From positions 806,001 to 870,000 of the forward strand of contig JAFCMP010000190.1 of NCBI GenBank assembly GCA_017506865.1: a DNA stretch of 64,000 nucleotides. The letters run 5' to 3'. A program made the position numbers and the translations under genes. The notes under the pieces were generated by a model, which ran no database searches, had not been told where the DNA came from, and saw only the letters and a list, made by a program, of their open reading frames with translations. This stretch comes from Tribonema minus. Taxonomy: Eukaryota; Sar; Xanthophyceae; Tribonematales; Tribonemataceae. Below, piece by piece: positions 1 to 64,000 of this stretch (its first letter is position 1; each line of letters opens with the position of its first letter).

Positions 1-2
1 GC

Positions 3-45879: not shown

Positions 45880-46086
45880 ATGGCAATGGCGCTTGTCAAC
45901 AGGACGATGGCACGAGTGGCAGCAGCAGAGCAACTGGAGACGGACGCGCAGCGCACAAACGCAAGAGGGTCTAGAATGACGGTTGGTCAATTTCCGATCA
46001 AACAGGCGAAGGGGAGCACACGGGCGGGCAAAGTGCAGTCAAGCGCTCTAGAACAGGTCATAACAGCCTGGAACAGCAACGTCTGA
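45880..46086 (+). CDS. Small upstream ORF overlapping the RT ORF by TGATG
   Basis: A 68-codon ORF (MAMALVNRTMARVAAAEQLE, later QFPIKQAKGSTRAGK) ends in a TGA (46084-46086) that shares its A with the ATG (46086) of the large ORF. Stop/start overlaps of this form allow coupled re-initiation in some non-LTR elements. The ORF is basic and short. A second overlapping ORF in another frame starts at 45759. Coding status is unproven. Confidence 0.35.
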   Translation: MAMALVNRTMARVAAAEQLETDAQRTNARGSRMTVGQFPIKQAKGSTRAGKVQSSALEQVITAWNSNV

Positions 46087-49000
46087 TGCTAGACGACGAA
46101 GCTGGAGGTGGAGGCAGTGCGGACCCGGAGTACAAGTGCAACTTATGCGACCTCGTGGTGAAGAAGGGCATGTCGCTGCTCTCGTTACAGCAGAGGTTAA
46201 ACGCCCACATCGCGGCGAAGCACCAGCGCAAACACCACAGTGGGACAGCAACAACGTTCCTGGAGCGCTCCGACCTCAGCACGTCGCACTTGCAAACCAT
46301 CTACACCGAGTGTGCCTTGTGCAAAAACCTGTTTCATGCCAACAAGACATTCAGAGTGGACAGCAGCGATGCCAGCGCGGGCAAGCACTGCCGCAAATGC
46401 AGGCCTATCACTTCACCCGCTGCAGTGGCGGCAACATTGTCAACAACAGCATCAGCAGCACCGCTAGCACCTGATGCATCGACGGCAACAGCTACCACGT
46501 CGCTGCCACAGCAGCAACCGGCGTGCACACCCATCGGCAACCCCTACGCAAAGGGACCAGCGCACGCGCAGCAGGCACCTGCTGCTCAGGCTGGTGGCAG
46601 CAGCTCCTCCGGCAGCTCAAAGAGGCCGGAACGCGGGGGCAGCAGTGCTACACGAGGGGGTCGGGGTCGCAGTGGAGGGCGCGGACGTGGCAATGGAGGA
46701 CGCGTTCGCAGCGGCAGCAATGATGCAGACATCAGCAGTAGCAGAGCGACTAGCGGCAGCAGAACCGGAGGCGGCAGCAGCAGCGGTGCCGGCGGCGGCA
46801 GTGCAGCCGGTACTAAGGACAGCGGCGCTGGCAACGGCCGCAGCAGTGATGCCAGCAGCCGCAGCGGCGGTGCTAGCAACAGCGGCAGTGGCGCGCGAAC
46901 TCAAAACGGCCGCGGTGGCCGTGGCAGCGGTCGCAGCAGCGACAGCGGCGGACGAGGCTGTGGTCGTGGCGGCCGCGGCGGCGGCGGAGGGGGTCCCAGA
47001 GCGGCAGGTGCGGCGACAGCAGCGGCAGCGCCAGGCCCTGCAGGCGCAGCAGGTGGGGCAGGTGGGCTTTTCACGTGGACCATCTCAACCCCCGCAGTCG
47101 CAGCAGTGCTTGACAGCATCAGCCTCGATGAGCTGTGCAAGCTGCAGTTCGCGACAACTAGAAGCCTTGCTAGACCACGCAATCGTCGCTATGTGGGAGC
47201 TGCACTGGAGAACGCAGCAACACATCTGTTGGCACACACAATGACGATGTTCGTCAATGCGGCGCGGGAGCCAGATTCTGCAGGGCGGGTGCAGCGACTG
47301 CAAAGATCCACGATTCTACACCACCTCATGCCATCACTCATCACCTCCACCGATGGCGCACCTGGCATCACTCGCTCCGACAGAATCAGAATGTTGGCAC
47401 GCGGTGAGCTTGACCGGTTGGTGCCAGCGCTCCTCGCGCACGCGCGTGCGCACCGGCGCTGGCGCGCGCGCCAGCAAACGGAGGCAGCGATCAACGCCTA
47501 CGTCCTACAGTGCATGGGCACACGGGGGGGGCTACAGCAGGCAGCGCGTTTCCTTCAGCCCAAAACGGTGGCGATACCTGATGATGACTGCTTTGCCGCC
47601 ATGCAGTCCAAACACCCCCCCGCTGCGCCAGGGGAACAACTCCATGAGCTATCCGGCATGGTTGATCAGCTTGTGGCGAAAGCAGCCGACATGCCAGCAG
47701 AACTCAGCCTGTTACAGGGGGAGGGAATTGAGCCAGAGACGGTTGCCAAGCTCATCCAGCGAGCAAGCCCTTACAGTGGAGCAGGCCCATCGGGGCTGCG
47801 CTACAGCCACCTGCAGGATGCGCTACGCACAAGCTGGGGACGGCATGAGTTTGCTAATGTCCTCACACGGTGGCTTCAGACCGTTATGCGGGAGGCTGCG
47901 CGGCTGCCGGATGCCTTCTGGCAGTTGCATGGCGCGGGGCGCCTGACGCCACTTGCAGAACAACAGGAAGATGGTACAGCTAAGCAGCGGCCCATCGTTT
48001 GCGGCGAGGTGCTGCAGCGACTATGCACTTCGGTGTACGTGGCAGACCGCAAAGACTTCCTGGCGGAGCTCCTTGAGCCAGACGGGCAGTATGGGGTAGC
48101 GGTCTCAGCAGGAGCGGAGAAAGCGGCCATGGCCGGCAAACTCGCGTATGAGCTCGGTCACTGGCAGTTCATGCTGGACCTCAAGAATGCCTTCAACATG
48201 GTGTTCGTCCTGGCGGCAGCGGAATGGGTAGCAGCACAGCTGCCGGACTTCCTCGACTACTTCATCGGCACATACGTTCGCACTCGGCCACGCCTGCTGT
48301 TCCAGCACGTTGACGGCTCCACGCGCATCATCATGTCTCAGCGCGGGTTTAAGCAGGGGGACCCCGCGGCACCGATGCTCTTCTGCGGCGCCATTGCTCA
48401 GTGCTTGAAACGGTTCAATGAGGCGGCGGCTGCGCAGCGCGCGCGGAGGCGGATGGGCGCCTACATGGACGATGCCAACGTCCGAACAGGCGCTTGCACG
48501 CTGACTCAGGATGACATACAGGCGGTGGCGCAGCTCAAACAACACTTTGCGGAGGTGGGGCTGGAGCTAAACCTCACCAAGTCACGCGCGCTGCCTGGCA
48601 GGGGGCATGTGGTGACAGACCACGAGCGGCAACTGCTGCAGCAGCTGGGCGTTCAGCTAGTGGGGGATACGGATGAAAATCAGAACCGTGGAGCTGTGTT
48701 GCTGGGGGTGCCGGTGGGCCACAGCAGCTTTGTGGACGCATGGCTGCGCAGGGAAGCGGGTGCAGGCGGGGCAGGGGCTCGATTTGCAGAGCGATGCGCG
48801 CGCCTGACATCTCCGAGGGCTATGATCAGGTTACTGCGCTACTGCGTGGTGCCTCGCATGACGTACTGCCTGCGCACCATTCCCACTACGCAGACAGCGC
48901 CAGCCGCCAAGGAGTGGGATCGGGTCACGCAGTGGGTGCTTGAGCACTCAATGGGCCTGCAGCCACCAGGCCAGACCTGGCGCCAGTTTGAGCAAAGTGG

Positions 49001-51056
49001 GGCCCACTTCCATCTGGCAGCGCACGGCCCAGCCTTACAGCAAGCGCGACTCCCAACACGGCATGGCGGCCTTGGCATTACCAGCGCCTGCGACATCGCT
49101 GATGCTGCGTATGTGGCGGGCACGTTGCAAGCGCTGCAACCAGCACTCTCTGGATGGGCGGGGGTGCTGCAGCAGGCGGCTCCTCAAGCGGCTGCAGACA
49201 ACGCTGCTGAGGATGCGGCAACACAAGCGGCACCGGCAGCAGCGGCAGCAGCACCAGCACCAGCAGCATCAGCAGCGGCAACTGTTACAGCGGCAGCGGC
49301 GGTTGCCAGTGGAGGCGCGACCGCTCCGGCAGCGGCAACTGCATCAGCGGCTGGCCGCGCTTATGGCGCAGCCATTCCGGCAACACACGACGCAGCTGCC
49401 GCTGGATCAGGGGCCGCGGCGGCAGCACAGGCGGCACCAGCGGCAGCAGCAGCAGCGGCGGCGCACGGCGCAACTACTCCGGCGGCAGCAGCAGCGGCGG
49501 CAGCAGCAGCTGCTCCAGCATCAGAGGCTGCTGCAGCAGCGGCAGCACATGTTGCACCTCAAGTGGCCTCGGCGGCATCACTAACTGCAGCATCAACAGC
49601 AGCGGCTGCGGGCATAGGCAATACAGCTGCTACAGGCCCTACTAGCCTAAGGGCTGCTGCAGCACCTGCAACAGGAGCAGCGTCGGCAGGCGGCGCCGCA
49701 ACCGTGCCGGCTGCGACAGCGGCAATGGCGGTGGCAGCGGCCAATGCGGCAGGTGCTGCACCAACACCTGCGGCAGCAGCAACACCACTGGCAGCAGCAG
49801 CAACGGCAGGCGGCACAGCTGCAGCACCAGCGCACGCAGCAGCGGCAGCCGTCAATGCAGGCGCTGCGCGTTCCACACCAGCAATGCTACAAGGCGCAGC
49901 AGCGGCAGAGGTGGCGCGCCTGCCCCTCATGCGGACGATCGCCACAGCTGCCACATCTCTACGTGCAGCAACAGGTGACAAGCTGGAACATATACTGCCA
50001 CCAGCGCTAACGCCACTGCAGCAGCAACCACCTACGCAGCAGCCGCCGCTGCGGCCGACAGCAGGTGGTGGCACTGGTGCGGATGCTGCTTGCGTACTTG
50101 ACGCCAGTGCTCTGCAGTTGCAGTGTAGCCTGAAGCGCCCCAATCAGAGTGCGCTTGCAGATGCCGTCGCTACCGAGCTTGCAGATAAGGTGGAGGCGGA
50201 CCTGCAACAGCTGCCGCAGGGCACGCAACGCACGCAAGCACTTGCTCGATTCCGGTCGCAGCGCCACATGCACTCGATCGGCATGGCATTCCTCAACGAG
50301 CCCATGTACTCCACAACGGCTTCGTTCGATGGCCTATCCTGGCAGCTGGCCGTCAAACGCGCCATCGGAGTAGAGGAGCAGACGGCAGGCTGCAAGCTGT
50401 GCGGGAAGTCGCCGGGCGGCACCCTGCATGCACGGCTGTGTCAAGCGCCACGCGTCAAGGCGCACGACACCATTGTCCACAATAGCGTCAAGAGGGCCAC
50501 GCAGCGCCTCCTGCGGCAATACCTCAAAACGGGACTGGTGGACGAGGACTACACGCCGTTTCTGGGGTCCGCCGGGCCGCCGGGGAGTCGCAGGATGGAC
50601 ATCGTGCTGCCTGCCGACGCCTTCCCGGTGACCGGCTACGACGACCCGACACGCCACCTACCGCTCATGGTGGACGTTACCTGCTTCGAGGCACAGGTGG
50701 CGTCGCGGGCGGCGAAGACTGCAGCAGACCCCGAGCGATGCTGCCGCGACCAAGAGGCCGCCGAGACTACCCACTATTCTGGTCATTATGATCAGAATTG
50801 CTACAAACTTGCCACATTGGCAATAGGGTCATTTGGCAGCATCGGGGAGCAGGGGCGGAAGCTGCTGGAGGCTGTGGCGATGGAGTATGCCAGCAGGATG
50901 TCAGTGCCCGGAGGAGCGCGCCCTAAAGCTCTCAAGGGCATCGCCCTGGCGCGCTTACGCTCGGCACTGTCGGCAGCGCTCCACATGGCGTACTCTGGCC
51001 GTGTCATGACACACATGGCAGAATCCAGGGGGGGGGGCACATGGAGGAGGACGTAG
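46086..51056 (+). CDS. Non-LTR retrotransposon polyprotein: zinc fingers - RT - CCHC - restriction-like endonuclease, 1656 aa
   Basis: This is a self-mobilising retroelement protein. The N-terminus has CNLCDLVVKKG...HIAAKH (C2H2-like, residues about 17-45) and a second Cys cluster CALCKNLF...CRKC. A Ser/Gly/Arg-rich RGG-like basic region (about 170-320) follows. The reverse transcriptase spans about residues 550-900: GPSGLRYSHLQDAL, TAKQRPIVCGEVLQRL, FMLDLKNAFN, RGFKQGDPAAPMLFCG and the catalytic GAYMDDANV. A repetitive Ala-rich linker of roughly 240 residues (encoded about 49190-49910) follows the thumb. The C-terminus has CKLCGKSPGGTLHARLC (CX2CX8HX3C-type) and RMDIVLP...LPLMVDVTCFEAQV, the layout of R2/NeSL-group restriction-like endonucleases. 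No apurinic endonuclease or RNase H domain is seen. The ORF is uninterrupted, so the copy may be young. The exact clade is not certain. Confidence 0.8.
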   Translation: MLDDEAGGGGSADPEYKCNLCDLVVKKGMSLLSLQQRLNAHIAAKHQRKHHSGTATTFLERSDLSTSHLQTIYTECALCKNLFHANKTFRVDSSDASAGKHCRKCRPITSPAAVAATLSTTASAAPLAPDASTATATTSLPQQQPACTPIGNPYAKGPAHAQQAPAAQAGGSSSSGSSKRPERGGSSATRGGRGRSGGRGRGNGGRVRSGSNDADISSSRATSGSRTGGGSSSGAGGGSAAGTKDSGAGNGRSSDASSRSGGASNSGSGARTQNGRGGRGSGRSSDSGGRGCGRGGRGGGGGGPRAAGAATAAAAPGPAGAAGGAGGLFTWTISTPAVAAVLDSISLDELCKLQFATTRSLARPRNRRYVGAALENAATHLLAHTMTMFVNAAREPDSAGRVQRLQRSTILHHLMPSLITSTDGAPGITRSDRIRMLARGELDRLVPALLAHARAHRRWRARQQTEAAINAYVLQCMGTRGGLQQAARFLQPKTVAIPDDDCFAAMQSKHPPAAPGEQLHELSGMVDQLVAKAADMPAELSLLQGEGIEPETVAKLIQRASPYSGAGPSGLRYSHLQDALRTSWGRHEFANVLTRWLQTVMREAARLPDAFWQLHGAGRLTPLAEQQEDGTAKQRPIVCGEVLQRLCTSVYVADRKDFLAELLEPDGQYGVAVSAGAEKAAMAGKLAYELGHWQFMLDLKNAFNMVFVLAAAEWVAAQLPDFLDYFIGTYVRTRPRLLFQHVDGSTRIIMSQRGFKQGDPAAPMLFCGAIAQCLKRFNEAAAAQRARRRMGAYMDDANVRTGACTLTQDDIQAVAQLKQHFAEVGLELNLTKSRALPGRGHVVTDHERQLLQQLGVQLVGDTDENQNRGAVLLGVPVGHSSFVDAWLRREAGAGGAGARFAERCARLTSPRAMIRLLRYCVVPRMTYCLRTIPTTQTAPAAKEWDRVTQWVLEHSMGLQPPGQTWRQFEQSGAHFHLAAHGPALQQARLPTRHGGLGITSACDIADAAYVAGTLQALQPALSGWAGVLQQAAPQAAADNAAEDAATQAAPAAAAAAPAPAASAAATVTAAAAVASGGATAPAAATASAAGRAYGAAIPATHDAAAAGSGAAAAAQAAPAAAAAAAAHGATTPAAAAAAAAAAAPASEAAAAAAAHVAPQVASAASLTAASTAAAAGIGNTAATGPTSLRAAAAPATGAASAGGAATVPAATAAMAVAAANAAGAAPTPAAAATPLAAAATAGGTAAAPAHAAAAAVNAGAARSTPAMLQGAAAAEVARLPLMRTIATAATSLRAATGDKLEHILPPALTPLQQQPPTQQPPLRPTAGGGTGADAACVLDASALQLQCSLKRPNQSALADAVATELADKVEADLQQLPQGTQRTQALARFRSQRHMHSIGMAFLNEPMYSTTASFDGLSWQLAVKRAIGVEEQTAGCKLCGKSPGGTLHARLCQAPRVKAHDTIVHNSVKRATQRLLRQYLKTGLVDEDYTPFLGSAGPPGSRRMDIVLPADAFPVTGYDDPTRHLPLMVDVTCFEAQVASRAAKTAADPERCCRDQEAAETTHYSGHYDQNCYKLATLAIGSFGSIGEQGRKLLEAVAMEYASRMSVPGGARPKALKGIALARLRSALSAALHMAYSGRVMTHMAESRGGGTWRRT
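49190..49910 (+). repeat. In-frame GCA/GCG/GCAGCACC minisatellite (Ala-rich linker of RT ORF)
   Basis: The DNA is built from degenerate GCAGCGGCAGCAGCACC-type units that encode almost only Ala, Pro, Thr and Ser. It stays open in several frames, which explains long shadow ORFs on both strands here. Confidence 0.85.
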
Positions 51057-51145
51057 GGGAGGACCCCGAGATGCCATTTGGCGGCGGCGGCGTTTGAGTG
51101 GTTGTCGTTGCGACACTTTCAGACTGTCATACGACATGTAGATTC

Positions 51146-51218
51146 CTTACAGCTAGATGCCAATCATCTGGGCTTTTTCGCGCCCTGAGCGAGAATTAAT
51201 AAAAAGTACACTGTACAG
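51146..51218 (+). repeat. 73-bp direct repeat, right copy (3' region of non-LTR element)
   Basis: One mismatch to 45605-45677. A third, more diverged copy is at about 52232-52310 within the second 3'-region copy. Confidence 0.95.
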
Positions 51219-51319
51219 TAGGCAACCTTAAATACTCAACTTATTGACTCAGTACACAACAACATGGTGAGACAGCCTGTAGGTAACTTTCAGGGCTCTG
51301 GCCTTCATGTAACGGATTC

Positions 51320-51705: not shown

Positions 51706-52194
51706 CTAGTCTGCGCTGTGCCCTAGGAGCTTGGATACCGGCGCTGCAATACAGCCCAGCATTCGCGCTCCGCGTGTGTACGCCATGACGCGCTCCGCCA
51801 ACTCCCGCGCCAGCGATATGCTCAGCTCAATGAGGATCTGACGCTTAGCTAACCCGGCCTTGCGTAACACATCTGCCTTCCCTCCCCCTGAGCACAGTGC
51901 TGAGTGCATTGCCAACTCCTTAACAAAAACGCTTGTCTGCTTGCTCAGCCGGCCGTACGACTCCTGCACGAATGGCATAAATGCCCAAGATGACGTCAAG
52001 GTGCCAGTGTGGTGCTTGACCTTCGCGTCCTCCCCCACCCCAGCAGCATAGCCGTCCGTGTTCGAGGCATTTGTTTTGCCTGTCAGGTACGAGCTCGCTG
52101 TGGGCGCGCGCACACTGTACAGGGAGGATCCCGAGATGCCATTTGGCGGCAGCGGCGTTTGAGTGGTTGTCGTTGAGACACGTTCAGAAGTCAC
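51706..52194 (-). CDS. Unrecognised minus-strand ORF in the second element copy
   Basis: A 162-codon ORF starts MTSERVSTTTTQTPLPPNGI and includes WAFMPFVQESYGRLSKQTSV and LIELSISLARELAERVM, with a plausible amphipathic helical C-terminal half. No family recognised. Its first about 25 codons are antisense to the duplicated 3' region of the non-LTR element, so it may be a chance ORF or the 5' end of an opposite-strand element. Confidence 0.3.
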   Translation of the reverse strand: MTSERVSTTTTQTPLPPNGISGSSLYSVRAPTASSYLTGKTNASNTDGYAAGVGEDAKVKHHTGTLTSSWAFMPFVQESYGRLSKQTSVFVKELAMHSALCSGGGKADVLRKAGLAKRQILIELSISLARELAERVMAYTRGARMLGCIAAPVSKLLGHSAD

Positions 52195-52404
52195 ACGACA
52201 TGCAGATTCCGTACAGCAACATCAAGTTAGACCATCATCTGGGCTTTTTCGCGCCCTGAGCGAGAATTTATAAAAAGTACACTGTAATAGAATAATAAAA
52301 GTACACTGTACAGTAGGCAACCTCAAATACTTGACTTATTGACTCAGTACACAACAACACGGTGAGACAGCTTGTAGGCAAATTCCAGGGCTCTGGCCTT
52401 TATG
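52115..52404 (+). mobile_element. Second, diverged copy of the non-LTR 3' region, cut by the LTR insertion
   Basis: From AGGATCCCGAGATGCCATTTGG onward this parallels 51061-51314 at high but imperfect identity. Shared text includes GGCGTTTGAGTGGTTGTCGTTG, the TCTGGGCTTTTTCGCGCCCT core, CAGTAGGCAACCT and GACTCAGTACACAACAACA. It includes an extra AATAATAAAAGTACACTGTA block. The match continues to GGGCTCTGGCCTTTATG, exactly where the LTR begins. Confidence 0.85.
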
Positions 52405-53071
52405 TGAACCAGGCTACCATGTGATGCTGTCATAAATGCAAACATACAAGCTGGAAGAGCAATCACAGGCAGACAGCTCAGAGAACATGCTGAAGTAGAA
52501 TAGAATGAAATGGGAGCGCTTACCGATAGGTCTTATTGTTGCACGCGTCACGTAGGAAGGCTTGGGGCTTCAAGGAGTCTGCTACAGCTGCTGTCTTGCA
52601 CAGGCTCCACAACACCTCGTAACTCTTAGACTGATGTTGTGCACAGCAAACTGATGTGCCCTTTGGCATGTGACCAGTGTTACTGAACCAGGTCTAGTCT
52701 GACCTCTAGAACAGACATCTACTCACATGCAAAGGTCTAGGGTGACCATAGAGGTCGAAGGATGACCTGTAAGGGCTATGAGGTGTAACTGCTTATGCTA
52801 ATATACCCCCAAGCCGTATCAGATCCCCCTTCCTTGTTGAGCATCGCCCTCGATGCGGAGTTGAATGTGACGCGGGTAGCTGACCGTCGACTTGCACTTT
52901 TCTGATAGTTGTAGCTTGCTCGCACTTGGTGCACTACTGAGCAGGAGGCCAATTAAAACTGGTTGAAAACCCCATTAAAAACCTGGGAGGCAAACCTGCT
53001 ATTCAGGTGAATCCTCTCTGCAGGAAAAGGGAGTTCTCGGCCCCAGGTGTGACTCAACTGGAGTCCCCACA
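52405..53071 (-). repeat. 3' LTR of Ty3/gypsy chromovirus (667 bp)
   Basis: It begins TGAACCAGGC and ends GTCCCCACA on the + strand (TG...CA). The first 230 bp are identical to 63771-64000, as far as the window allows. Since the element is on the minus strand, this is the 3' LTR. Confidence 0.9.
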
Positions 53072-53090: not shown

Positions 53091-56000
53091 TACAGGGCGA
53101 GCGGCGAGCACGTTCCATGAGGAATGCGCACTGTCTTTAGGCGTGCGGTAATCACTCGGACGTAAACGCATACGCCTGACGGTCTTCTCACCGTCAAACA
53201 GCACGTCGAACGTGAACTGCGACCTTGCGGGGTAAAACTCGCCTAAGGTGCCGCGGCTCCAGCCTGTTGGGAAGTGATACCAGATCACCTCACCCTCAAA
53301 GCTTGATCCGAAATCAGATGGCAATCTGGGCAGTCTCACCAATATGATCTGCGGCTGAGCAGAATCTTGAATTGGGCTTGCCTCAGAAAGACTTTGGGAT
53401 TGTGGCAGACTTTGCGTAGCCTGGGAGCTGGGACCTGCGCTCTTGGCAATGTCCGGCGCACTTCGCGCTTGCAGTCTCCGGGCCTTGTCACGCACTGCCT
53501 CTGCCAACTGTATGGCAGACTTGACCTGCGTACGGGTCATCTGTTCCCACTCGCCATCTTCATATCTGATCCTCCAGTATGGTGATACAAAGTTCTTTAC
53601 TGCCCCCCATACGTAAGTAAGTGGGCCTCCCAATTTAACCCTGTGTTCCCTCACCAGCGCTGTGCCGATGGGATAAAGCTGCAGCGCGCTCTCTCGGCGC
53701 ATACTTGCATCTTCTTTGGGTGTGGGTCTGATGGCATATGCGGGTAGCTTTCCTTCGTTACGCAGCTCATAGAGCGCGTGAAAAGCATCCAATGTCCATG
53801 GCATGACTTCTTGCAGCATGTCGTCTTCCGACACCCATGCATGCGACTTGCCATCTTTGGACTGCCACTTGTACTGCCATGAACCATTAGGGCTCACTTG
53901 GCGGTCTAGAACTCTGTACAGTTTCTCGCCATCTGCTAGCTCTTCCACTTGATGTGGGCTAAGCGTGGCATGCACACCAGGTTCCAACATGGCATTAGGC
54001 CTCATGTGAAATGGTTTCATGTTCTCTACATGAGCTGTGGTGTGTCTGACTCGTCTGCCCATCATTCTGCATATGAAGGAAAGACCTGATTCGCCTGTGC
54101 GAGCCTCGATCTGCCAAGGCCCCACATACCTAGCGTCTAGAGCAGCTGATCTGTTTCTCTGCTTAGGTAGTCTGATCATGACATAGTCACCGACCGCGAA
54201 CTTCACTGCACGCTTAACTGCTTCGTTGCGCTTAGTGATCTTCTGGGCGCGCAACTGCAGCGCCTTTGACACAACCTTCAAGTTGTCTGCGAGCTCAAGC
54301 ATGTCTAACTTGCGCTCAATTTCTTCGTGTAGGTCTAGCTTTCTACTGCCATCTTCGTGCATAAATGCATCATGTGGCAGAGAAGCTTCGCGACCGTACA
54401 CACAGAAAAAGGGTGTCAATCCTGTCTCATCTCGGGGAGTTGTCCTCAACACAAACTGTACGAGCTCTAAGCCTTCGTGCCAGTTTGTCTGCTGAGCGCT
54501 GACCCAAGATGCTAGTGCCTTCTTAGCACGACCATTTGCATGTTCTGCCACACCATTGGTTTGTGGGTGGTATGCACTGGTCTCTATGCGTTTAACTCTA
54601 AACGCTCTGCAAAGGTCACTGACCACATTGCCAAGGAAGACTTTGCCCTTGTCTGAGCATAGTTCCTCCACTAATGCTCCAACCTCTAGGAACACTGTCA
54701 TGAGGTGCGGGGTTACATCTTTAGTACCCTGGCCATGCATAGCGGCTAGCCATACAAAACCGGACCTCGTCTCCACAATAGTCAGAACATACTTATGCCC
54801 CGCTGCGGACTGGATACCAGGCTCTGTGATATCAATGTTGAGACGTTGCCACATGCGCACTGGCTCAGCCAACCACTGCTTATATTGAGTGGAGCTGGCG
54901 CGCTTGCGTTCTAGGCACGTCATACAACTCTGCACGTACGTTCGTGTGTCTGCGCCCATACCAGGCCAGTAATATCTCTCGAAAATACGTGTGTGCGTAG
55001 CACCTATGCCACAATGCATAGCACTAGCATCATCATGCCCTAAGCGCATGACTACTAGGGTTCTGAGTGCAACTGGCACTACCCACTGCAACAACACCAT
55101 ACCTCTCTTGGGGTGGCTTGTTGCACTGTGCACCAAGAGACCATCTTCTTCAATGGTATACTGCTCTTGTCGCGCTAAGACGTGAGCAACTAGCTCTGCG
55201 CCCTCGGGAATATCTCCCACGGTAAGCATCTTGCTCACCGCCTGACAGAAGCCATCCGCTTTCTGAATTTCAAGAAAAGCGACTTTGCTGAGCATCACCG
55301 GTGTGGCTTGTGAGCCCCCTTCGGCAACTTGCTTCAACAATTGTATTACTTCTGGTCTGGGCAACGTTTTTTTACGTTTGCCTAAGACAGCCTCACCATC
55401 GTCACCCGGTGGTTCGTCTGCTTCTTCAGTCTCAGCTGGAGCGTCAACTTCTAAAAGTTCACCTTCTTCAAGTGCGCTCGTATTCTCAGCTGACTGAGCT
55501 GTAGTGACGCTGCATTTGGCTCTCTTTGAACCTATGCTGCGCCGCCTGTCGCATGCGATCTGTCTTAAGAGTCGCTGCGCCTGGGATTGCTCCCACGAGT
55601 CAGAGTACTTTTGCACTGGCTCGGCATATGCTGTGTTGATCTCAATCTCATCGAACTCAGCCTCCTCCACTGTGGAGTCATCTAACCGTCTGTCTAATAA
55701 CTGTGTTAACTCCACAGCTGACAGGGCGGCTAGTCTAGCGGCCACCGCGCCTGACACGGCGACGGCCTCGTTGAACTTGAACGCGGGACCGTAACGTGCA
55801 TCCGCTGTGTAACCACGGCAGCTGTTCACGTCGGCTACTTTGTGCGTTCTAGTGGCATCATCAGCAAAGCGCACGCCCGAAGGTGGTGCATCCATGCTGG
55901 GGACTGCATCTGGCCACTGTTCATCTGCTGGCTCTGTAGAGCGTTCAGCGTCTAACTCTGCCTGCTGAGGCAGTCTGGATGGGGCATCAGCATTGGCATT

Positions 56001-56453
56001 TCTTCTGCCAGGTCTGTGCTGAATGGTAACGTCATACTCTTGTATGCGCATAGCCCATCTAAGTAGCTTGCCGTTGTAGTCTTGCAACGTCAAAAGCCAT
56101 CTGAGCGCTGCAGCGTCTGTGACCACTGTAACAGGATTACCCCAAATGTAGGGCCTGAAGTGGTTAAGTGCCAGCACTACTGCTAGACACTCAACTGCTG
56201 TTGCTCCTAACTTAGCATCAGGTTCTGAGTTCAGTTTGCTGAAGTAGCCAACGACCACTTCTCTGACTTCTTCACCTTCAGCTATACGGCGCCTGCCAGT
56301 ACTGGCGTATGGCTGCCCTGCAGTTGCCTTCTCGACCTCTGTTACGGGTCTGAATTGCGTAAGCACACCTGCTGTTGCCGTTTTAGAGGCGTCGGTGTAC
56401 AGTACAAATGGCAAACTGAAATCTGGGTGCATGACTATGCGACTATCGCACAT
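53073..56453 (-). CDS. Chromovirus pol part 2: RNase H - integrase - chromodomain - Tudor-like tail, 1126 codons
   Basis: This continues the RT frame after the TAA at 56574. In-frame coding similarity actually begins at 56573, upstream of the first Met. RNase H: FVLYTDASKTATAGVL and the later AVECLAVVLALNHFRPYIWG and VVTDAAALRWLL. The integrase zinc domain is H-H-C-C (LGHDDASAMHCGIGATHTRI ... CMTCLERK). The catalytic triad is D in NIDITEPG, D in CSDKGKVF and E in NGVAEHANGRAKKAL. A GPY/F-like segment (YVGPWQIEARTGESGLSF) is followed by a chromodomain (YRVLDRQVSPNGSWQYKWQS ... AWVSEDDM), marking it as a chromovirus that may target silent chromatin. Two further small beta-rich segments follow (SPYWRIRYEDGEWEQM; GWSRGTLGEFYPARSQFTFD), the second Tudor-like. 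The ORF ends in TAG at the polypurine tract. Confidence 0.9.
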   Translation of the reverse strand: MCDSRIVMHPDFSLPFVLYTDASKTATAGVLTQFRPVTEVEKATAGQPYASTGRRRIAEGEEVREVVVGYFSKLNSEPDAKLGATAVECLAVVLALNHFRPYIWGNPVTVVTDAAALRWLLTLQDYNGKLLRWAMRIQEYDVTIQHRPGRRNANADAPSRLPQQAELDAERSTEPADEQWPDAVPSMDAPPSGVRFADDATRTHKVADVNSCRGYTADARYGPAFKFNEAVAVSGAVAARLAALSAVELTQLLDRRLDDSTVEEAEFDEIEINTAYAEPVQKYSDSWEQSQAQRLLRQIACDRRRSIGSKRAKCSVTTAQSAENTSALEEGELLEVDAPAETEEADEPPGDDGEAVLGKRKKTLPRPEVIQLLKQVAEGGSQATPVMLSKVAFLEIQKADGFCQAVSKMLTVGDIPEGAELVAHVLARQEQYTIEEDGLLVHSATSHPKRGMVLLQWVVPVALRTLVVMRLGHDDASAMHCGIGATHTRIFERYYWPGMGADTRTYVQSCMTCLERKRASSTQYKQWLAEPVRMWQRLNIDITEPGIQSAAGHKYVLTIVETRSGFVWLAAMHGQGTKDVTPHLMTVFLEVGALVEELCSDKGKVFLGNVVSDLCRAFRVKRIETSAYHPQTNGVAEHANGRAKKALASWVSAQQTNWHEGLELVQFVLRTTPRDETGLTPFFCVYGREASLPHDAFMHEDGSRKLDLHEEIERKLDMLELADNLKVVSKALQLRAQKITKRNEAVKRAVKFAVGDYVMIRLPKQRNRSAALDARYVGPWQIEARTGESGLSFICRMMGRRVRHTTAHVENMKPFHMRPNAMLEPGVHATLSPHQVEELADGEKLYRVLDRQVSPNGSWQYKWQSKDGKSHAWVSEDDMLQEVMPWTLDAFHALYELRNEGKLPAYAIRPTPKEDASMRRESALQLYPIGTALVREHRVKLGGPLTYVWGAVKNFVSPYWRIRYEDGEWEQMTRTQVKSAIQLAEAVRDKARRLQARSAPDIAKSAGPSSQATQSLPQSQSLSEASPIQDSAQPQIILVRLPRLPSDFGSSFEGEVIWYHFPTGWSRGTLGEFYPARSQFTFDVLFDGEKTVRRMRLRPSDYRTPKDSAHSSWNVLAARPVPLEER

Positions 56454-56573: not shown

Positions 56574-59327
56574 TTAATAGTTAAATACTCCCATAACCAC
56601 TTGCACTAACTGTTTGTCGGCCCGCCCATTCTTTATCGGTGGACTCATGTCAAACATGGCCTTGACCTTGTCAGGGTCGGGTCTGGTTCCTGCTGCGCCA
56701 ACTATATGGCCTAGAAACTTGACTTCAGCTTGAAAAAGCTGACACTTGGGACGAGACACGCTCATGCCTGCCGCACCTATGCGGCCTAACACATCGTCTA
56801 GCTGATCAATGTGGTCTTCAACGTCCGTACCGTATACCAGCACGTCGTCGATGTACACTAACGCGTGAGAGCCCAAAGCATCTCCTAACACGTTGTGCAT
56901 CAGTCTGGTGAATTGCGCTGGCAAATTCACTAAGCCAAAAGGTGATACCTTGTAGTGCCACAGCGAGCCGTCTGGGGCCCTGAATGCTGTCTTAGCTTTG
57001 GCTCCTTCTGCCAACGGATTTTGGTGATATCCCGCTGCCAGATCTAATGAGGACAGAATCCTCGCACCTTGCACAGCTCGCATCATGTCATCCATGTTGC
57101 CTAAGCCATGACTGTCTCTCTTCGTAACTGCATTTAACTTTCTGAAGTCAATGCAGAAGCGAATCTTATCGCCTTGAACAACTAGCACTGGGTTGCTTGC
57201 CCAAGCACTGTCTGAGGGTTCAATTTGTTGGCGCTTTGCCATCATCTGAATCTGTTTCATGATGTACTCGGCTTCTTTAAATGCCCAGTGCCGCGCTTTG
57301 TCGGCCACCGGCTCTGCCGTCTGAGTGTCAACATCAATCTTAAAGTGTTGAGTGACTCTGGGATTTTTGGGATCTTTTGCAAAGACATTTCTGTGCTTTT
57401 TGAGCATGTCTAATGCTTTTTGTTTTAAGGGTACCCCATCTCTCCCCCTTCCTTGTAAATGAGGTGCTAATTTACCATCTTTTTCAAGGATTTCTTGTAA
57501 CTCTGCATCTGTGCAGTGTTCTGACTGAGCATTGTGCTTTTGACTTAGCTCTGTTAATCTTTGCACTTCTTGTGCAACCTCTACGGTAGTTTTACCAATG
57601 GCCGCAGCTATTTCTGCCACCAACTGAGCATTTTCTGAATGCTTTCTGACTGCTATTTCTAGCAGTTTGGTCTGCAGTGCCTGTTGAGTTGCTTCTTGCA
57701 CTTCTAACAGGTCATCTGCTTTTAATGGGGTTACTTTACCCCAATAGGTGTTGCGGCGTACGTATACTGGATACATTGAAGTATTGCTCAATGTTGCGTA
57801 TACTGTGCCACTGGCATTTACGGTGAGCGCAGTAATGTTAGCTTTAACACCTTTGCATCTCATTATTTCCGTGGTAACTGTTTGGTCTGGTATGAGCAAA
57901 GCCTCATAGGGCTGTACGCGCTTCGGTTTAGGAAACAGCGTAAGCTCCACGATCGTTTCTGACGATGGTGCCAGCACAGTATTGTATGCCATTCTCACTG
58001 AGCACTGCTTGGGCGCTACTGGCGCTTCTGCAGTCTCAGCACTGCCATTGCCTTTGCAACTGGCTAAACTAGCTGCATGTGTGCTCGCATTGTCTGTGCG
58101 CGCTTTCTCATGCACTGGGCGTATAGCTACGCCTTTTAGTCCCCCTGGGAAAAAGGCTGGGCTACCACCATGATACGAGATTACTGAGCCGGGTGGGGCA
58201 AAGAAGTCTGTACCAAGTAACACATCCATGGGTGTGTTCACCACATAGAACTTGTGTAAAAACATTTTATTTTTGAATCTCAGCCATGCATTAACTACAC
58301 CACTGATCTGCAGGGACGTCTTGCCATCTGCCAAAAGGATCTGAGTGTAGTCACCTTTTTGACGTGAGCATATGTAGCTGCCTGGCAGTTTGTCTGCTAT
58401 GCGCTTGCCCATGATGGTTACGGTAGCACCGCAATCCACCATTGCACGCACATATAACTCTTTCGGCGTTCGCGAGTTACTCTGAACACGCAGTGACGCT
58501 GAGACAAACATTTGCCCTGGGGGTACAACGCCAGCGACTGGCCGTATGTACTCCACTGGCCCCTCTAACTGAGAGTGTGCCACTGAACTAGGTTCGGTTG
58601 ACCCTACTGCAAGGTCTACTGGAGGTAATTGAACCTGCTCTCTCTGTATCGCAATCTCATCTGCGAGACGCTTTACAGTTTCTGCTACACTTTCTTGTGT
58701 AGTAGTTGTGATGTCTTTCTGGACATCGCGCATATGGTCTAATATGCCTAGTGACTGCGAGTCTAAACCAGCGCGCCTGAGCGCTGCTCTGAGCTCACCT
58801 GGAGCAAGGCGTGGGTCTGTACCACCGCCAAGCTTTTTGCGCGCCGCTACGGCCGCAACTGGTTGAGCACTGACTTCTGCGTCAATGTTCATGTCCTCTG
58901 GACTACTGCACACGCTCATACATGACTTTGAGTCGTATTCAGAGTCAGAACCTGAGTCATCAACTTCCATGATGTCAGCCATGCCAGGTTGAGTCACGGC
59001 TAAGTCTACTTCTGACTCCTCCCATGCGCTATGCATTGGGACTACTGGTACCGTGGGGTACTCTGCATTATGCGGTCTAGCATTAATGCCCTGCAACATT
59101 GCCACTGAGCAATGCGCACTGGAAGTGGACATTGAGTGCGCCGTCGCTGCGGTACGCACCATTGAACCACTACTCTCTGCCAACCAAGATGGTGGTGGGC
59201 AGTCTACTGAATGCCGCAACATCAACTCTGATTTGCGCGGCAAACGCATCTGTTGTTCGGGCAAAGTACACAAGCCTGAGGCTTCTATGGCCACGAACAA
59301 ATGAAACGCCATCTCTGGGATGAACAA
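56574..59327 (-). CDS. Chromovirus pol part 1: aspartic protease - reverse transcriptase, 917 codons
   Basis: It is in the same frame as the Gag ORF upstream. Coding similarity starts before this first Met, because the methyltransferase motif X region (ADLFIPEMAFHLF) spans the start. Retroviral-type protease motif: YVRAMVDCGATVTIMGKRIA (DCGAT in place of the usual D[ST]GA). The reverse transcriptase begins around DKIRFCIDFRKLNAVTKRDS. It continues with LSSLDLAAGYHQNPL, KVSPFGLVNLPAQFTRLM, catalytic YIDDVLVYG and VKFLGHIVG. The ORF stops at TAA (56574-56576) just after VVMGVFNY, a point where Ty3 elements normally continue without a break into RNase H, so the TAA looks like a nonsense substitution. 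Confidence 0.9.
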   Translation of the reverse strand: MFIPEMAFHLFVAIEASGLCTLPEQQMRLPRKSELMLRHSVDCPPPSWLAESSGSMVRTAATAHSMSTSSAHCSVAMLQGINARPHNAEYPTVPVVPMHSAWEESEVDLAVTQPGMADIMEVDDSGSDSEYDSKSCMSVCSSPEDMNIDAEVSAQPVAAVAARKKLGGGTDPRLAPGELRAALRRAGLDSQSLGILDHMRDVQKDITTTTQESVAETVKRLADEIAIQREQVQLPPVDLAVGSTEPSSVAHSQLEGPVEYIRPVAGVVPPGQMFVSASLRVQSNSRTPKELYVRAMVDCGATVTIMGKRIADKLPGSYICSRQKGDYTQILLADGKTSLQISGVVNAWLRFKNKMFLHKFYVVNTPMDVLLGTDFFAPPGSVISYHGGSPAFFPGGLKGVAIRPVHEKARTDNASTHAASLASCKGNGSAETAEAPVAPKQCSVRMAYNTVLAPSSETIVELTLFPKPKRVQPYEALLIPDQTVTTEIMRCKGVKANITALTVNASGTVYATLSNTSMYPVYVRRNTYWGKVTPLKADDLLEVQEATQQALQTKLLEIAVRKHSENAQLVAEIAAAIGKTTVEVAQEVQRLTELSQKHNAQSEHCTDAELQEILEKDGKLAPHLQGRGRDGVPLKQKALDMLKKHRNVFAKDPKNPRVTQHFKIDVDTQTAEPVADKARHWAFKEAEYIMKQIQMMAKRQQIEPSDSAWASNPVLVVQGDKIRFCIDFRKLNAVTKRDSHGLGNMDDMMRAVQGARILSSLDLAAGYHQNPLAEGAKAKTAFRAPDGSLWHYKVSPFGLVNLPAQFTRLMHNVLGDALGSHALVYIDDVLVYGTDVEDHIDQLDDVLGRIGAAGMSVSRPKCQLFQAEVKFLGHIVGAAGTRPDPDKVKAMFDMSPPIKNGRADKQLVQVVMGVFNY

Positions 59328-59384
59328 GTCTGCAATGTATCTCTGTACATCACTCTGTGACGCACGACTCGGTAGATCATGATG

Positions 59385-62300
59385 CTACGTCATGAGTACT
59401 GCCATCTCAGCAAGCGATAATACGCGAGCTGATGACACCGGGCCAGCATCCTTAACATGCGCAACATAGCTTGCAGCAGGTTTTCCAGGCAATCTGCGCA
59501 CTGGACTGGGCAACAGACCATCAGCATTCAACACACCAGGATGCTGAGCACTGCGCGGTTGCAAAAAGAACGTGCGTTCGGGGCAGCGCAAACGAGAACG
59601 AACAGATGTCTGTCTGCTGTGTGAACGCTTGTCATTTATAAATGCACCGAACCGCTGGAGTGCCTTTCTTGAGGCCACCCCAGCTGGCACTATGAGAATG
59701 TACACTCTCTGCCTCTTGCAAGGTACTTCAAACTCAGAAGCCTTAAGCTTGGCAATGTACAGCATATAGCCAGCTGCCTTTAGAATGCGTACTGCGCGTG
59801 CAAACGCGCGTGACACTAGCACTCCGGGCACATTCTCATATAACACCACTTGAAGCTTGGCTCGCACGATGAGTCGTGCGGCGTGAACCGTGCACTCGGC
59901 AGCTTCACCCTCGACGCGCTTGCCCTCCGTTGAGAAGTCTGTGCAAGGCGGCGAGATGGTGGTGATGTCAGGTTTCTCGTCAAGTAGACGTGTAACAACA
60001 CTGGCATCAGTCATGCATGCTGCAATAGTGGGCACTTCTGGATGAACTTCATTCAGAGCCTCAATTGCTTTGACACTCTTGTCAACTGCAAGCACCGTGC
60101 GTGTTACAAAACCTGCTCTGGAGCTCATCTTACCTCCGGCTATGGCACCACCAAGCGCCCCACAGCAGATTGACGCATGTGTGATGATCCGAGGTGGCGG
60201 GCCTACGCCACTCTCAATTGCCGCTGTCTGCGCGCGCAATGGAACATCATCAACAGTGTCAGTGACTTGATCAATGGTCTGATTGATATTAGTATCTGCC
60301 ATGTCTACATCAAGTAAATCACTGTTTACTGATGACAACTCTGCAACTGAACAATCAGGTGCGCTGGGCAACTTCAAGTGTGACTCACTTTTACGTTGCT
60401 CCGCTCTGCGCTTGTGAAACGCTATGCATGGTGCGCAGGTGGTCTTGTGCTCCATGAGAGCAGCCCACGTAACCATGTCTTGCTTGCACCCAAGGCACTC
60501 GCAGTTGTTGCGAATGATCTTGCTGATGCCTCTGCCTGCTGAACCGTCTTGGCTCGGCATGGCACTGCCAGGTTGTCCCACTACCTCGGCGCGCTGCTGC
60601 GGGGTAAGACCCGCCAGCGCTGCACGTAAGGCAGCAACCTTCTTCTTCTTGGGCGCATTGTGGGTAACAATGCTCCAACTGTCCCTGGCTTGACGCTTGC
60701 CTGCGTCAAAGTGGGATGGCTGAGAGATGTGAGTCGCAGCTAATGCAGACACAACATTCCTCGTCTCGCGCTCGCTCACTGGCGAGGCCTGCCACTTTTG
60801 CTGAGCAGTGGCAACTACCTTTGTGAAACTTGTATGGAGCAAGTCCCACGTGTCATGCAAGCCGTTTACTTCTTGACGGCAGCATAAAGGCAGCTCATGC
60901 ACAAACTTCATACGAACAATTTCTTCATTGTCCGCACAGCCAGCGTCATGCGCAGCTGCAACCACCTCCCTGCCCCAAACTTCGGGACTGGTACCAGTGG
61001 TTGTTATGAGTTCGTGATACTTCTGCAAAGCTATTTGCTTCGCGGATGTGCTGTCATACGTGTCAGTAAGACACTGCAACATATGCTCGTATGACAAGTC
61101 ACTGAACGAACGTGTCTCCATTACACCTGTTCGCTCATTTCTCACTTTGCGGGTTAAATCTGCATGTTGACTCTTAGTCAGACTTAACAAAAGTGCCTCT
61201 GCGTAAGCAGACCTGGGCAAGCCGCGAGTGTCGCAACTACGCTCAAAAGCCCTAATAGAGGCTTGAAGTCTGCCCACCTGGGTGACTATGACTACTCCCG
61301 TGCCGCCAAACCCTCTAAGGTCGACTTTAGGCTTGGAAGGTGTCATTGCTACAGCAGAATAAGAAGGCGTGACTGCGCCAACCAACTCCCTGCGCTCACC
61401 TGTCTCTGGGCGTGCGGTGGCTGCCGCTGCGCCGGTCTCTGTGGCATCACGCGACTCCCAGTAGGAAGCAGGCACGTTGTTCGCGGCCCGACGCGTCTCC
61501 TCCGTGATGAGCGGCGTTGCGTTGAAGCCCCGAAGGTACTTCTGCAACTCTGGCTCGCTGTCATCACCAGGACTGCCAAATGCGAAACGGTAAAAGTCTT
61601 GCGCCTTGCGGCGCCTTTCACCCATGGCAAAAAGCATGCGGTACTGGCTTGCTTTGACACTGTGACCTCGCATCTCTAGTGCAGCAAGGGTTTGCTTCTG
61701 GCACTCCTCGACCTCTGCCTTCTTAACTGCACGTATTTCCAGTGTCAGATGTAAAGTCTGAGCTGGCCTCTCGTGATTAAGGCTGAACTCTAACTGGCCA
61801 AGCCTTTCAGCCAACATTTGCTCTGTTGCTACTGATATGGCTTTTATCTGCTTAGCGCTTCTGGCCTTGCCTTCATGAGTAGTAATGATGTGGTTCATGC
61901 TCACACACCACTGCTCATAAATCTCGTCGGTGCCCTCGGGGTCAAGGGGTATAGCCCCATTAACTTCAGGCGCTACCGGCGTCTGTGGCACAACTGGTGC
62001 CGTCTGCTGCACAACTGGTGCAAGCTGCTGCGCGACTGGCGCGGTCTGCGGCACAACTGGTGCTGCCTGCTGCACAACTGGTGCAAGCCGGTGCGCGACT
62101 GGCGCGGTCTGCGGCACAACTGGTGCTGCCTGCTGCACAACTGGTGCAGTGTACGCTACCGGGGCTCTGGGCCTGATAGGCTCGGGAGCGGGCGGCGTAT
62201 AGACCACTGGCGCAACTGGCGCGGTCTGCACACTTCGCGCATCTGCAACTGGCGGCGCCAATGGCGTCGCTGCAGGCGTTTGTGTTTGTTCTGCAACGAC

Positions 62301-62864
62301 AACTGGCGCGACTGGCTCAACTGGAGCTGCCGACGCTGTCGCTGCGCTGGGGGGGGTTTGTTCTGTACTTCGCTGCACAGTACTGTCGGCATCTGCAGCT
62401 GGCAGATTGAGTTTATAGCCTAGTACAGCGAGTTTCTTTATCAGTGCATCTGCTTCTTTCTTGTTTCTGGCTCTAAACATATCTGCTTGAGAACCACCAC
62501 CGTTGGGCTCGGTGTCTGAATCTGAACTAGATTCTAGGAAGCTGCGAATTATAGGGGGCGAGGAGCCGGTGACTGCCGACTGTGGAGGCCTCGCTGCCTT
62601 CGCTGATAAAGACTTGCCGGGCTTACTGGCACCGGATCTGCCGGGCGCGCTGGCACCGGCCTGGCTGGGCCGCGCAACTGGCGCGGGCCGTGCTGAGGAG
62701 GACGACGACTGGTCATCTGAGCTGTCGGGTTGCGCGACTGGGCGCTTACCGCTCTTGTTGCTCGTAGTAGCAGCGCTGCCAGTAGGCCTAGCGCTACCAC
62801 CACCACCCATAGGACGGCTTGCCCCACTTGATGGCTTCTTTGAGCCATGGCCTGTCTTGGCCAT
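59385..62864 (-). CDS. Chromovirus Gag fused to C5-cytosine DNA methyltransferase, 1159 codons
   Basis: The N-terminus is disordered, with Pro/Ala/Val repeats such as QQAAPVVPQTAPVA (about residues 200-300). A capsid-like helical region includes LQASIRAFERSCDTRGLPRS and SYEHMLQCLTDTYDSTSAKQ (about 510-700). A zinc finger CECLGCKQDM...HKTTCAPC (about 785-810) replaces the usual CCHC knuckle. The C-terminal about 270 residues form a Dcm/Dnmt-type methyltransferase. Motif I-like is SICCGALGGAIAGG, motif IV ISPPCTDFSTEGKR has the catalytic Cys, motif VI is VLYENVPG, and motif VIII is CKRQRVYILIV. A target-recognition-like region and motif IX-like LSLAEMAVLMT follow. TAG at 59385-59387 cuts the domain before motif X, which continues in the same frame. 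Methyltransferase domains in retrotransposons are known from a few protist and algal lineages. A role in methylating element or host DNA is inferred. Confidence 0.88.
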   Translation of the reverse strand: MAKTGHGSKKPSSGASRPMGGGGSARPTGSAATTSNKSGKRPVAQPDSSDDQSSSSSARPAPVARPSQAGASAPGRSGASKPGKSLSAKAARPPQSAVTGSSPPIIRSFLESSSDSDTEPNGGGSQADMFRARNKKEADALIKKLAVLGYKLNLPAADADSTVQRSTEQTPPSAATASAAPVEPVAPVVVAEQTQTPAATPLAPPVADARSVQTAPVAPVVYTPPAPEPIRPRAPVAYTAPVVQQAAPVVPQTAPVAHRLAPVVQQAAPVVPQTAPVAQQLAPVVQQTAPVVPQTPVAPEVNGAIPLDPEGTDEIYEQWCVSMNHIITTHEGKARSAKQIKAISVATEQMLAERLGQLEFSLNHERPAQTLHLTLEIRAVKKAEVEECQKQTLAALEMRGHSVKASQYRMLFAMGERRRKAQDFYRFAFGSPGDDSEPELQKYLRGFNATPLITEETRRAANNVPASYWESRDATETGAAAATARPETGERRELVGAVTPSYSAVAMTPSKPKVDLRGFGGTGVVIVTQVGRLQASIRAFERSCDTRGLPRSAYAEALLLSLTKSQHADLTRKVRNERTGVMETRSFSDLSYEHMLQCLTDTYDSTSAKQIALQKYHELITTTGTSPEVWGREVVAAAHDAGCADNEEIVRMKFVHELPLCCRQEVNGLHDTWDLLHTSFTKVVATAQQKWQASPVSERETRNVVSALAATHISQPSHFDAGKRQARDSWSIVTHNAPKKKKVAALRAALAGLTPQQRAEVVGQPGSAMPSQDGSAGRGISKIIRNNCECLGCKQDMVTWAALMEHKTTCAPCIAFHKRRAEQRKSESHLKLPSAPDCSVAELSSVNSDLLDVDMADTNINQTIDQVTDTVDDVPLRAQTAAIESGVGPPPRIITHASICCGALGGAIAGGKMSSRAGFVTRTVLAVDKSVKAIEALNEVHPEVPTIAACMTDASVVTRLLDEKPDITTISPPCTDFSTEGKRVEGEAAECTVHAARLIVRAKLQVVLYENVPGVLVSRAFARAVRILKAAGYMLYIAKLKASEFEVPCKRQRVYILIVPAGVASRKALQRFGAFINDKRSHSRQTSVRSRLRCPERTFFLQPRSAQHPGVLNADGLLPSPVRRLPGKPAASYVAHVKDAGPVSSARVLSLAEMAVLMT

Positions 62865-63750: not shown

Positions 63751-63767
63751 GGACTGCTCGGGTGCCA
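63751..63767 (-). other. Primer-binding site
   Basis: The + strand reads GGACTGCTCGGGTGCCA, the 3' end of a tRNA-like sequence including CCA. The element strand is therefore complementary to a tRNA 3' end. It is separated from the 5' LTR by three bases (AGT). The tRNA species is not identified. Confidence 0.75.
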
Positions 63768-63770
63768 AGT

Positions 63771-64000
63771 TGAACCAGGCTACCATGTGATGCTGTCATA
63801 AATGCAAACATACAAGCTGGAAGAGCAATCACAGGCAGACAGCTCAGAGAACATGCTGAAGTAGAATAGAATGAAATGGGAGCGCTTACCGATAGGTCTT
63901 ATTGTTGCACGCGTCACGTAGGAAGGCTTGGGGCTTCAAGGAGTCTGCTACAGCTGCTGTCTTGCACAGGCTCCACAACACCTCGTAACTCTTAGACTGA
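63771..64000 (-). repeat. 5' LTR of the chromovirus (partial, cut by window end)
   Basis: The 230 visible bases are identical to 52405-52634. The rest (about 437 bp expected) is outside the window. Confidence 0.92.

Follow-up and report, generated by a model that had tools for sequence, protein, structure and literature searches.

The stretch analysed here, called the window, comprises 64,000 nucleotides of the Tribonema minus genome (contig JAFCMP010000190.1, positions 806,001 to 870,000) and harbors a long terminal repeat (LTR) retrotransposon whose coding region includes a domain of the C5-cytosine methyltransferase (DNMT) family. Cytosine methyltransferases are usually host enzymes that contribute to the silencing of retrotransposons, which is why finding one inside such an element matters. 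The element lies on the minus strand, as do all of its features given below. It is bounded by two direct, mutually identical LTRs of 417 bp with TG...CA ends, the 3' LTR at 52405..52821 and the 5' LTR at 63771..64187, of which the window holds 63771..64000 only. The target site duplication TATG occupies 52401..52404 and its second copy adjoins the 5' LTR outside the window; the paired LTRs and the short duplication identify an LTR retrotransposon. By eye, a putative TGG-type primer binding site (TGGCACCCGAGC...) was recognized at 63751..63770, adjoining the 5' LTR, and a polypurine tract at 52822..52835, adjoining the 3' LTR.

The coding region is divided into ORF1, ORF2 and ORF3, all in the same frame. 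ORF1 (59385-62864; 1159 amino acids, aa) comprises a Gag-like N-terminal part (60204..62864), so named from its position only, its best Pfam match (E 0.053) falling short of E <= 0.01, followed by the DNMT domain from motif I through motif VIII and onward to the stop (59388..60203). This stop, an in-frame TAG at 59385..59387, falls within the domain, which resumes past it in the same frame and ends there with the motif X region (59193..59384). ORF2 encodes an aspartic protease domain (PR; VDCGATV, 58200..58451, E 2.5e-5, slightly under the Pfam cut-off) and a reverse transcriptase (RT; RVT_1, 56700..57170, with YIDD at 56844-56855). A TAA 3' of the RT domain (56574..56576) parts ORF2 from ORF3, in which Pfam found RNase H (RT_RNaseH, 56034..56423), the H2C2 integrase zinc-binding domain (54900..55052) and, with E 4.4e-6 and under its cut-off, the integrase core (IN; rve, 54531..54848), where three acidic motifs were seen by eye. 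The order PR-RT-RNase H-IN is present, the PR and rve matches being those under the cut-offs. The best PDB match of the RT of a related copy, L015, was the Ty3 RT (E 5.8e-44), ahead of 8r0s, which we take to be a caulimovirus sequence, and of retroviral RTs. On these features the window element is assigned to the Ty3/gypsy (Metaviridae) LTR retrotransposons.

The first-pass annotation had placed C5-methyltransferase motifs I, IV (PPC), VI (ENV) and VIII (RQRVY) at the end of the Gag reading frame, and all four were located there on the minus strand: motif I at 60147-60173, motif IV (SPPCTDFS) at 59931-59954 with the predicted catalytic Cys codon at 59943-59945, motif VI (YENVPG) at 59823-59840 and motif VIII (CKRQRVY) at 59700-59720. 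The profile check that it had proposed was positive, Pfam DNA_methylase (PF00145) matching the C-terminal part of ORF1 (aa 915-1057) with E 1.7e-16 and 61 bits against a cut-off of 22. TIGR00675 matched the domain below its cut-off (46 bits vs 100.65). VIA ranked DNA methyltransferases at the top (3g7u 17.8, HaeIII 17.1, HhaI 16.2), with Dnmt2 at 14.4, and a Foldseek search with the domain model returned Dnmt2 chains at ranks 2 and 4. These results indicate that the window domain is a member of the C5-cytosine methyltransferase family with a predicted Dcm/DNMT fold. A chance or pseudo-motif was ruled out by the Pfam match, the predicted fold and the hundreds of matches in the genome.

Related elements fall into families A to E, in which the domain lies, as read from profile matches and motifs, at three polyprotein positions: between Gag and PR, between PR and RT, and between RNase H and IN. 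Family A (the window element, L015) has the order Gag-DNMT-PR-RT-RNase H-IN, which is shared by L033 and L034 (approximately 64% and 68% RT identity; PR by eye). The DNMT of family B (L018, L021) precedes RT, and Pfam found no PR. Family C shows PR (E 0.001, below cut-off), then DNMT, then RT in L024; PR was seen ahead by eye in L007, and DNMT precedes RT in L022 and L023. Family D (L035-L037) reads PR (by eye)-DNMT-RT with a degenerate DNMT. Family E (L119, L120) has the order RT-RNase H-DNMT-IN, and in its copy on C401 the RNase H, DNMT and IN hits share one open frame of 2085 aa. The earlier description of a Gag fusion in frame with protease, RT and integrase therefore stands for the window copy, where the domain lies between the Gag-like part and the protease, but fusion with Gag alone fails as a general description, since the domain occupies three places in several Ty3 clades.

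The genome searched comprised 158 Mb in 554 contigs. All 123 DNMT places scored in a first profile search, from 378 candidates, were positive, and the union with four protein queries (families A, D, C and E), entered by hand with weak fragments omitted, gave at least 352 distinct DNMT places, decayed fragments included. Among full-length family-A matches, 36 of 38 carried no stop. Among the loci read individually, a DNMT and an RT match shared one open frame in 20 ORFs at 19 loci, to which L119 of family E adds one more; beside the DNMTs of L001-L004 no RT was found within the stretch examined. Of the best 150 RNase H hits, 124 had a DNMT in cis on the same strand (115 upstream, 9 downstream), compared with 4 after a 30-kb shift, a lenient control that may leave short contigs, and 3 on the opposite strand. 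For 150 integrase hits the count was 109, with 5 in each control. Among the matches listed, 26 of the 150 RNase H hits and 41 of the 150 integrase hits were without a DNMT, but these matches are incomplete (the C117 DNMT seen in L034 is missing from them) and do not establish that the remaining hits are DNMT-free. No Ty3 family without any DNMT was found, few loci having been inspected internally. Two candidates for such a family were rejected: L038 (C334), because L120 downstream and the sister copy L119 show a DNMT past RNase H, and L121, which has a DNMT remnant before RT. The first-pass annotation had allowed that the domain might lack a profile hit or be a one-off insertion absent from other copies. 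Neither is the case: family-A copies are mostly stop-free over the domain, related families carry it, and the many copies and the association in cis with RNase H and IN hits rule out a single event.

Several loci stood out in these searches. A DNMT-Ty3 copy at G000:C311 (about 3907-9033) sits in an open frame that, at 6208 aa, is double the normal size and may represent two tandem elements. In L022, two divergent family-C elements (2-4357, minus strand; 4677-9998, plus strand) lie within 10 kb, with a DNMT in each. The top three DNA_methylase hits of the genome, L001-L003 (C223, C181), are free-standing Dcm-like ORFs of 367-390 aa in which a motif X-like stretch, LGNSVVP, precedes a motif IX-like one; L002 and L003 are nearly identical in the tree. 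In IMG/VR, a viral contig (L064) has a 600-aa ORF whose Dcm domain matched the retrotransposon DNMT profile at 141 bits, more than any other of the viral matches listed. L031 and L032 (C334, C112) contain plastid rbcL fragments in nuclear DNA; their motifs are presumably Form ID, the red-plastid type.

The stramenopile host suspected in the first-pass annotation is supported, for example, by the identity of family-C proteins to Tribonema minus protein P0013 (L007, 77% over 527; L005, 72% over 525; L029, 89% over 220). These identities point to Tribonema or a near relative within the Xanthophyceae, although the species is not fixed by copies of a mobile element. Metagenome proteins P0001-P0007 share up to 61% identity with the family-A domain, and P0009-P0011 are related too, which marks them as related domains in the environment. 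A protein search with L015 residues 840-1400 gave no match, candidate lengths being tied to the 2887-aa whole.

Phylogenetic trees were compared for RT and DNMT. The RT tree, from which L029 was omitted and whose only outsiders were yeast Ty3 and 8r0s, with no chromovirus references, resolved clades A/B (100/99), C (99/98) and D with L121 (99/99), family E forming a very long branch. Each group was likewise coherent in the DNMT tree (A/B 97/85, C 100/99, D 100/100, E 100/99), and all 16 retrotransposon rows lay on one side of a branch that, at 82/83, is not strong. This tree differs from an earlier one by the removal of 10 rows (3 phage, 1 host-like and 6 near-copies of retrotransposon rows) and the addition of two family-E rows; in the earlier tree, without family E, D joined A/B (97/91) and C was unresolved among phage rows. 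Since the phage rows came from a family-C pattern scan (85 hits, 38 non-redundant, 25 in the earlier tree), the reference set leans towards family C. A DNMT2 clade (100/100) holds the host DNMT2-like exon L004 and none of the 16 retrotransposon rows, and DNMT3A, a single sequence, sits on a separate long branch. With the A/B profile (A1), DNMT2 was closest among solved sequences (E 7e-12 to 4e-11), followed by HhaI (6e-9) and plant CMT (2e-5), with weak matches to DNMT1 and to 7r76, which we take to be DNMT5; none of the 53 distinct solved sequences at E <= 1 was named DNMT3. These comparisons place the domain nearer to DNMT2/Dcm than to DNMT3, and a DNMT3 origin as in Klebsormidium is not supported. 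The domains may go back to a single capture followed by relocation or, just as well, to repeated captures from related donors of Dcm type, because the joint branch reaches only 82/83 and the earlier tree left C unresolved.

To gauge constraint, we estimated the ratio of nonsynonymous to synonymous substitution rates (dN/dS) by the Nei-Gojobori method. In the four DNMT pairs with unsaturated dS and more than 20 changes, the ratio was 0.08-0.23: 0.128 for window-L015 (dS 0.53), 0.107 for L015-L016 (dS 0.09), 0.231 for L014-L025 (dS 0.06) and 0.078 for the family-C pair L024-L020 (dS 0.41). Five other pairs gave 0.16-0.32 at dS of about 1.5 or more, near saturation. Too few differences separate L024-L019 (0.33 from six changes), L119-L120 (0.88 from seven) and L023-L022 (two, both nonsynonymous) for their ratios to be informative, and L018-L017 were identical. 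RT was tighter than DNMT in distant pairs (window-L015, 0.032), which did not hold for every close pair (L015-L016, 0.235). By these ratios, the DNMT domain shows the signature of purifying selection.

The window copy itself is probably dead and stems from a recently active lineage, since its stops are absent from the relatives compared and its LTRs are identical; the identity of the LTRs also points to a recent insertion. Of the four full-length DNMT matches at 87%, the window's included, the window's alone has the DNMT stop. The RT stop of the window copy is missing from C193, a relative 94% identical to the RT query, which has a different stop instead. A shared stop marking a read-through or non-autonomous lineage was ruled out, as C193 and the other 87% matches lack the window's stops. 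The first-pass annotation had named the TAG, and the TAA went unmentioned there. A second family-A copy, C190:920500-936499, also has identical LTRs, of 412 bp. Elsewhere in the window, a 1656-aa ORF at 46086-51056 on the plus strand has a YMDD-type reverse transcriptase motif by eye and is probably a non-LTR retrotransposon. A direct repeat (51057-51310 and 52122-52405, 82% over 285 bp) ends, in its second copy, at the Ty3 insertion point.

The element had also been called a chromovirus on the strength of a C-terminal chromodomain. A conserved C-terminal module at 53763..53921 is putatively chromodomain-like by eye, but Chromo was not among Pfam matches at E <= 10 for the window or for pieces of five further elements, and a PDB profile search with the module gave no match. 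For a poor single-sequence model (pLDDT, predicted local distance difference test, 51), about 23 of the 50 rows listed were chromo or chromo-shadow by title (best of these E 0.27), the top row being an unrelated PX domain. The chromodomain thus stands as a candidate only, and the chromovirus label with it. Past this module lies a second conserved piece, 53454-53762, with WRxRYxDGxWE and weak matches to Pfam PTM_DIR17_Tudor (E 0.003-0.14 in the window, L018 and L021).

As far as sequences and models can tell, these elements share a DNMT domain with its motifs and predicted fold, occurring in many copies, in several Ty3 clades and at differing positions, and kept by purifying selection. The explanation we favor, at a probability of roughly 55%, is that a young xanthophyte Ty3/gypsy element carries a Dcm-type DNMT between Gag and PR and methylates its own cDNA or the DNA at its insertion sites. 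The domain would be translated within Gag-Pol and packaged beside RT and integrase, and would methylate cytosines, probably at CpG, in new element cDNA or in insertion-site DNA. A new copy would thus arrive already marked; the mark would persist if the host has a maintenance-type enzyme, and might disguise the copy as host DNA or curb expression that does harm. We hypothesize self-methylation or integration-site marking in this sense, and the canonical motif IV of family A favors DNA as the substrate.

The base composition of the copies bears on this explanation. Within the window, observed/expected CpG was 0.99 outside the element, compared with 0.73 for the element and 0.33 for its 417-bp LTR; L015, L033, L034 and L018 gave 0.81-0.85. 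Among five family-A copies (L011 left out), single-copy C>T changes affected 11 of 298 CpG positions and, outside CpG, 13 of 1407 C/G positions (Fisher p 0.001). The pattern is only weakly consistent with CpG methylation of copies by host or element. Several observations weigh against methylation by the element. Slices of 2 kb from the remaining window span 0.77-1.24, the remaining changes at C/G positions are skewed likewise (3 within CpG, 4 outside), and the host could be the cause of the depletion. The ratio is 0.71 in one copy of family D, whose DNMT is degenerate, and families C (1.01) and E (1.14; one copy each) are undepleted though they keep the motif IV Cys. In the AF2 model of the domain, pLDDT is under 50 for residues 9-27, which include motif I. 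L034 (TLC), L021 (SSC) and family E (SNC) have a weakened motif IV, and the L035-type copies of family D lack what corresponds to L036 residues 85-108, the catalytic loop. The DNMT of the KnitGypsy element was reportedly without activity in yeast, a result its authors called inconclusive (PMC5890265).

The changes in motif and loop could instead mean that the domain is mainly non-enzymatic, a fold binding nucleic acid or S-adenosylmethionine that aids particle assembly, packaging or integration, some lineages having given up catalysis. We regard this as rather unlikely, though family D speaks for it. Its loopless copies have amplified in open reading frames of up to 3455 aa: with L036 as query, at least 28 rows begin at residue 109 (113 in one) and run to 318 at 64-66%, and in 27 of these the adjoining piece ends at residue 84 (both counts by eye). 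The L035-L036 domains have dN/dS of 0.156 at a near-saturated dS of 1.47. Because L121, an old relative of family D, keeps GPPCTDF and the frames are open, the family-D enzyme would formerly have been competent, its loop being lost in a lineage still amplifying. Together with the altered motif IV of L034, L021 and family E, this suggests that the fold itself may account for some of the benefit. However, the window family has a canonical SPPC, and all seven A/B domains retain the motif IV Cys, ENV and RxR unchanged.

That the enzyme acts on RNA, either primer tRNA or genomic RNA, in the manner of DNMT2, appears improbable. Of the solved sequences, DNMT2s match the A/B profile best, Dnmt2 chains rank high in the Foldseek search, and RNA methylation has been raised for SymbioLINE as well (PMC5890265). 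Yet families A-E fall outside the 100/100 DNMT2 clade that includes the host exon L004, and VIA puts DNA methyltransferases ahead of Dnmt2. We give still less weight to self-limitation, in which the DNMT would mark new copies for host silencing and be kept since milder elements persist: CpG depletion was measured in A, B and D copies, and a host with DNMT5, as described for T. minus (PMC10538959), could maintain the mark, but the state of an element's own DNMT and its CpG depletion are not linked. A functionless passenger in decay, as the stop inside the window's domain might suggest, is scarcely credible and already contradicted by selection data, with dN/dS well below 1, the DNMT stop absent from three other 87% matches, the RT stop absent from C193, and 36 of 38 full-length family-A matches stop-free.

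Methylation by the element of its own cDNA or insertion-site DNA could be part of a wider arrangement, which we consider doubtful: the DNMT would be a near-standard Ty3 module at three positions, the elements would supply de novo methylation by marking cDNA before integration, host DNMT5 would maintain it, and one subfamily would have kept the fold, after loss of the loop, as a structural or nucleic-acid-binding part. The presence of DNMTs at three places in several Ty3 clades suggests that a methyltransferase can be recurrently useful to retroelements, and prompts one to ask what share of the host methylome these elements write. Since canonical, weakened and missing loops all occur in one organism, they offer natural contrasts by which the need for catalysis versus fold can be tested directly.

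DNMTs in retrotransposons are known from Symbiodinium (LINE, DIRS) and Klebsormidium nitens (Gypsy, Dnmt3; de Mendoza et al. 2018, PMC5890265). Passages of other reports describe, with reference to that work, Copia LTR and DIRS elements bearing DNMT3 (PMC12344493), an N4C/N6A-type methyltransferase in a DNA transposon among Ectocarpus repeats (PMC12477816), and DCM-type methylases in Ty3/Gypsy and DIRS elements, with stramenopiles among the hosts for DAM and DCM together and no architectures like the present ones (PMC6338049). On the host side, T. minus is reported to possess DNMT5, HELLS, a putative CDCA7 and a protein that groups with DNMT4, and to be exceptional in having CDCA7 without DNMT1 (PMC10538959); most stramenopiles, diatoms excepted, lack DNMT3 (PMC9998398). 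Among titles and abstract openings, with subscription papers and preprints outside the scope, we found no report of a xanthophyte DNMT-bearing Ty3 element, of a Dcm-type DNMT between Gag and PR or between RNase H and IN, or of a fixed loss of the catalytic loop.

Prokaryotic and phage Dcm-type methyltransferases (PF00145, TIGR00675; 3g7u, M.HaeIII, M.HhaI) share motifs I, IV, VI and VIII and the fold with the present domains, but are free-standing, and the retrotransposon domains group apart from them (82/83, not strong). DNMT2, the tRNA C38 methyltransferase, is the best solved-sequence match of the A/B profile, yet forms a separate, strongly supported clade. SymbioDIRS-Dnmt3 and SymbioLINE-Dnmt resemble the present elements in occurring in hundreds per genome and in being under purifying selection; they were acquired more than once, as may also hold here, and differ in being DIRS or LINE rather than Ty3, of Dnmt3 or orphan class, and dinoflagellate (PMC5890265). 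Neither the DNMT3 class nor the DIRS-like repeats of KnitGypsy-Dnmt3 and SymbioDIRS-Dnmt3 are found in the window element. KnitGypsy-Dnmt3 comes close as an algal Gypsy-type element with a C5-methyltransferase in its coding region under purifying selection, but its domain is Dnmt3-type and lies in the Pol ORF of an element with DIRS-like repeats in a charophyte (PMC5890265). The elements described here instead carry Dcm/DNMT2-like domains at three positions between simple direct LTRs, in many copies and several clades, in a red-plastid stramenopile. The first-pass annotation's expectation of a new combination is thus upheld within the literature compared: retrotransposon DNMTs were already known, and the Dcm-type architectures of these Ty3 elements appear to be new.

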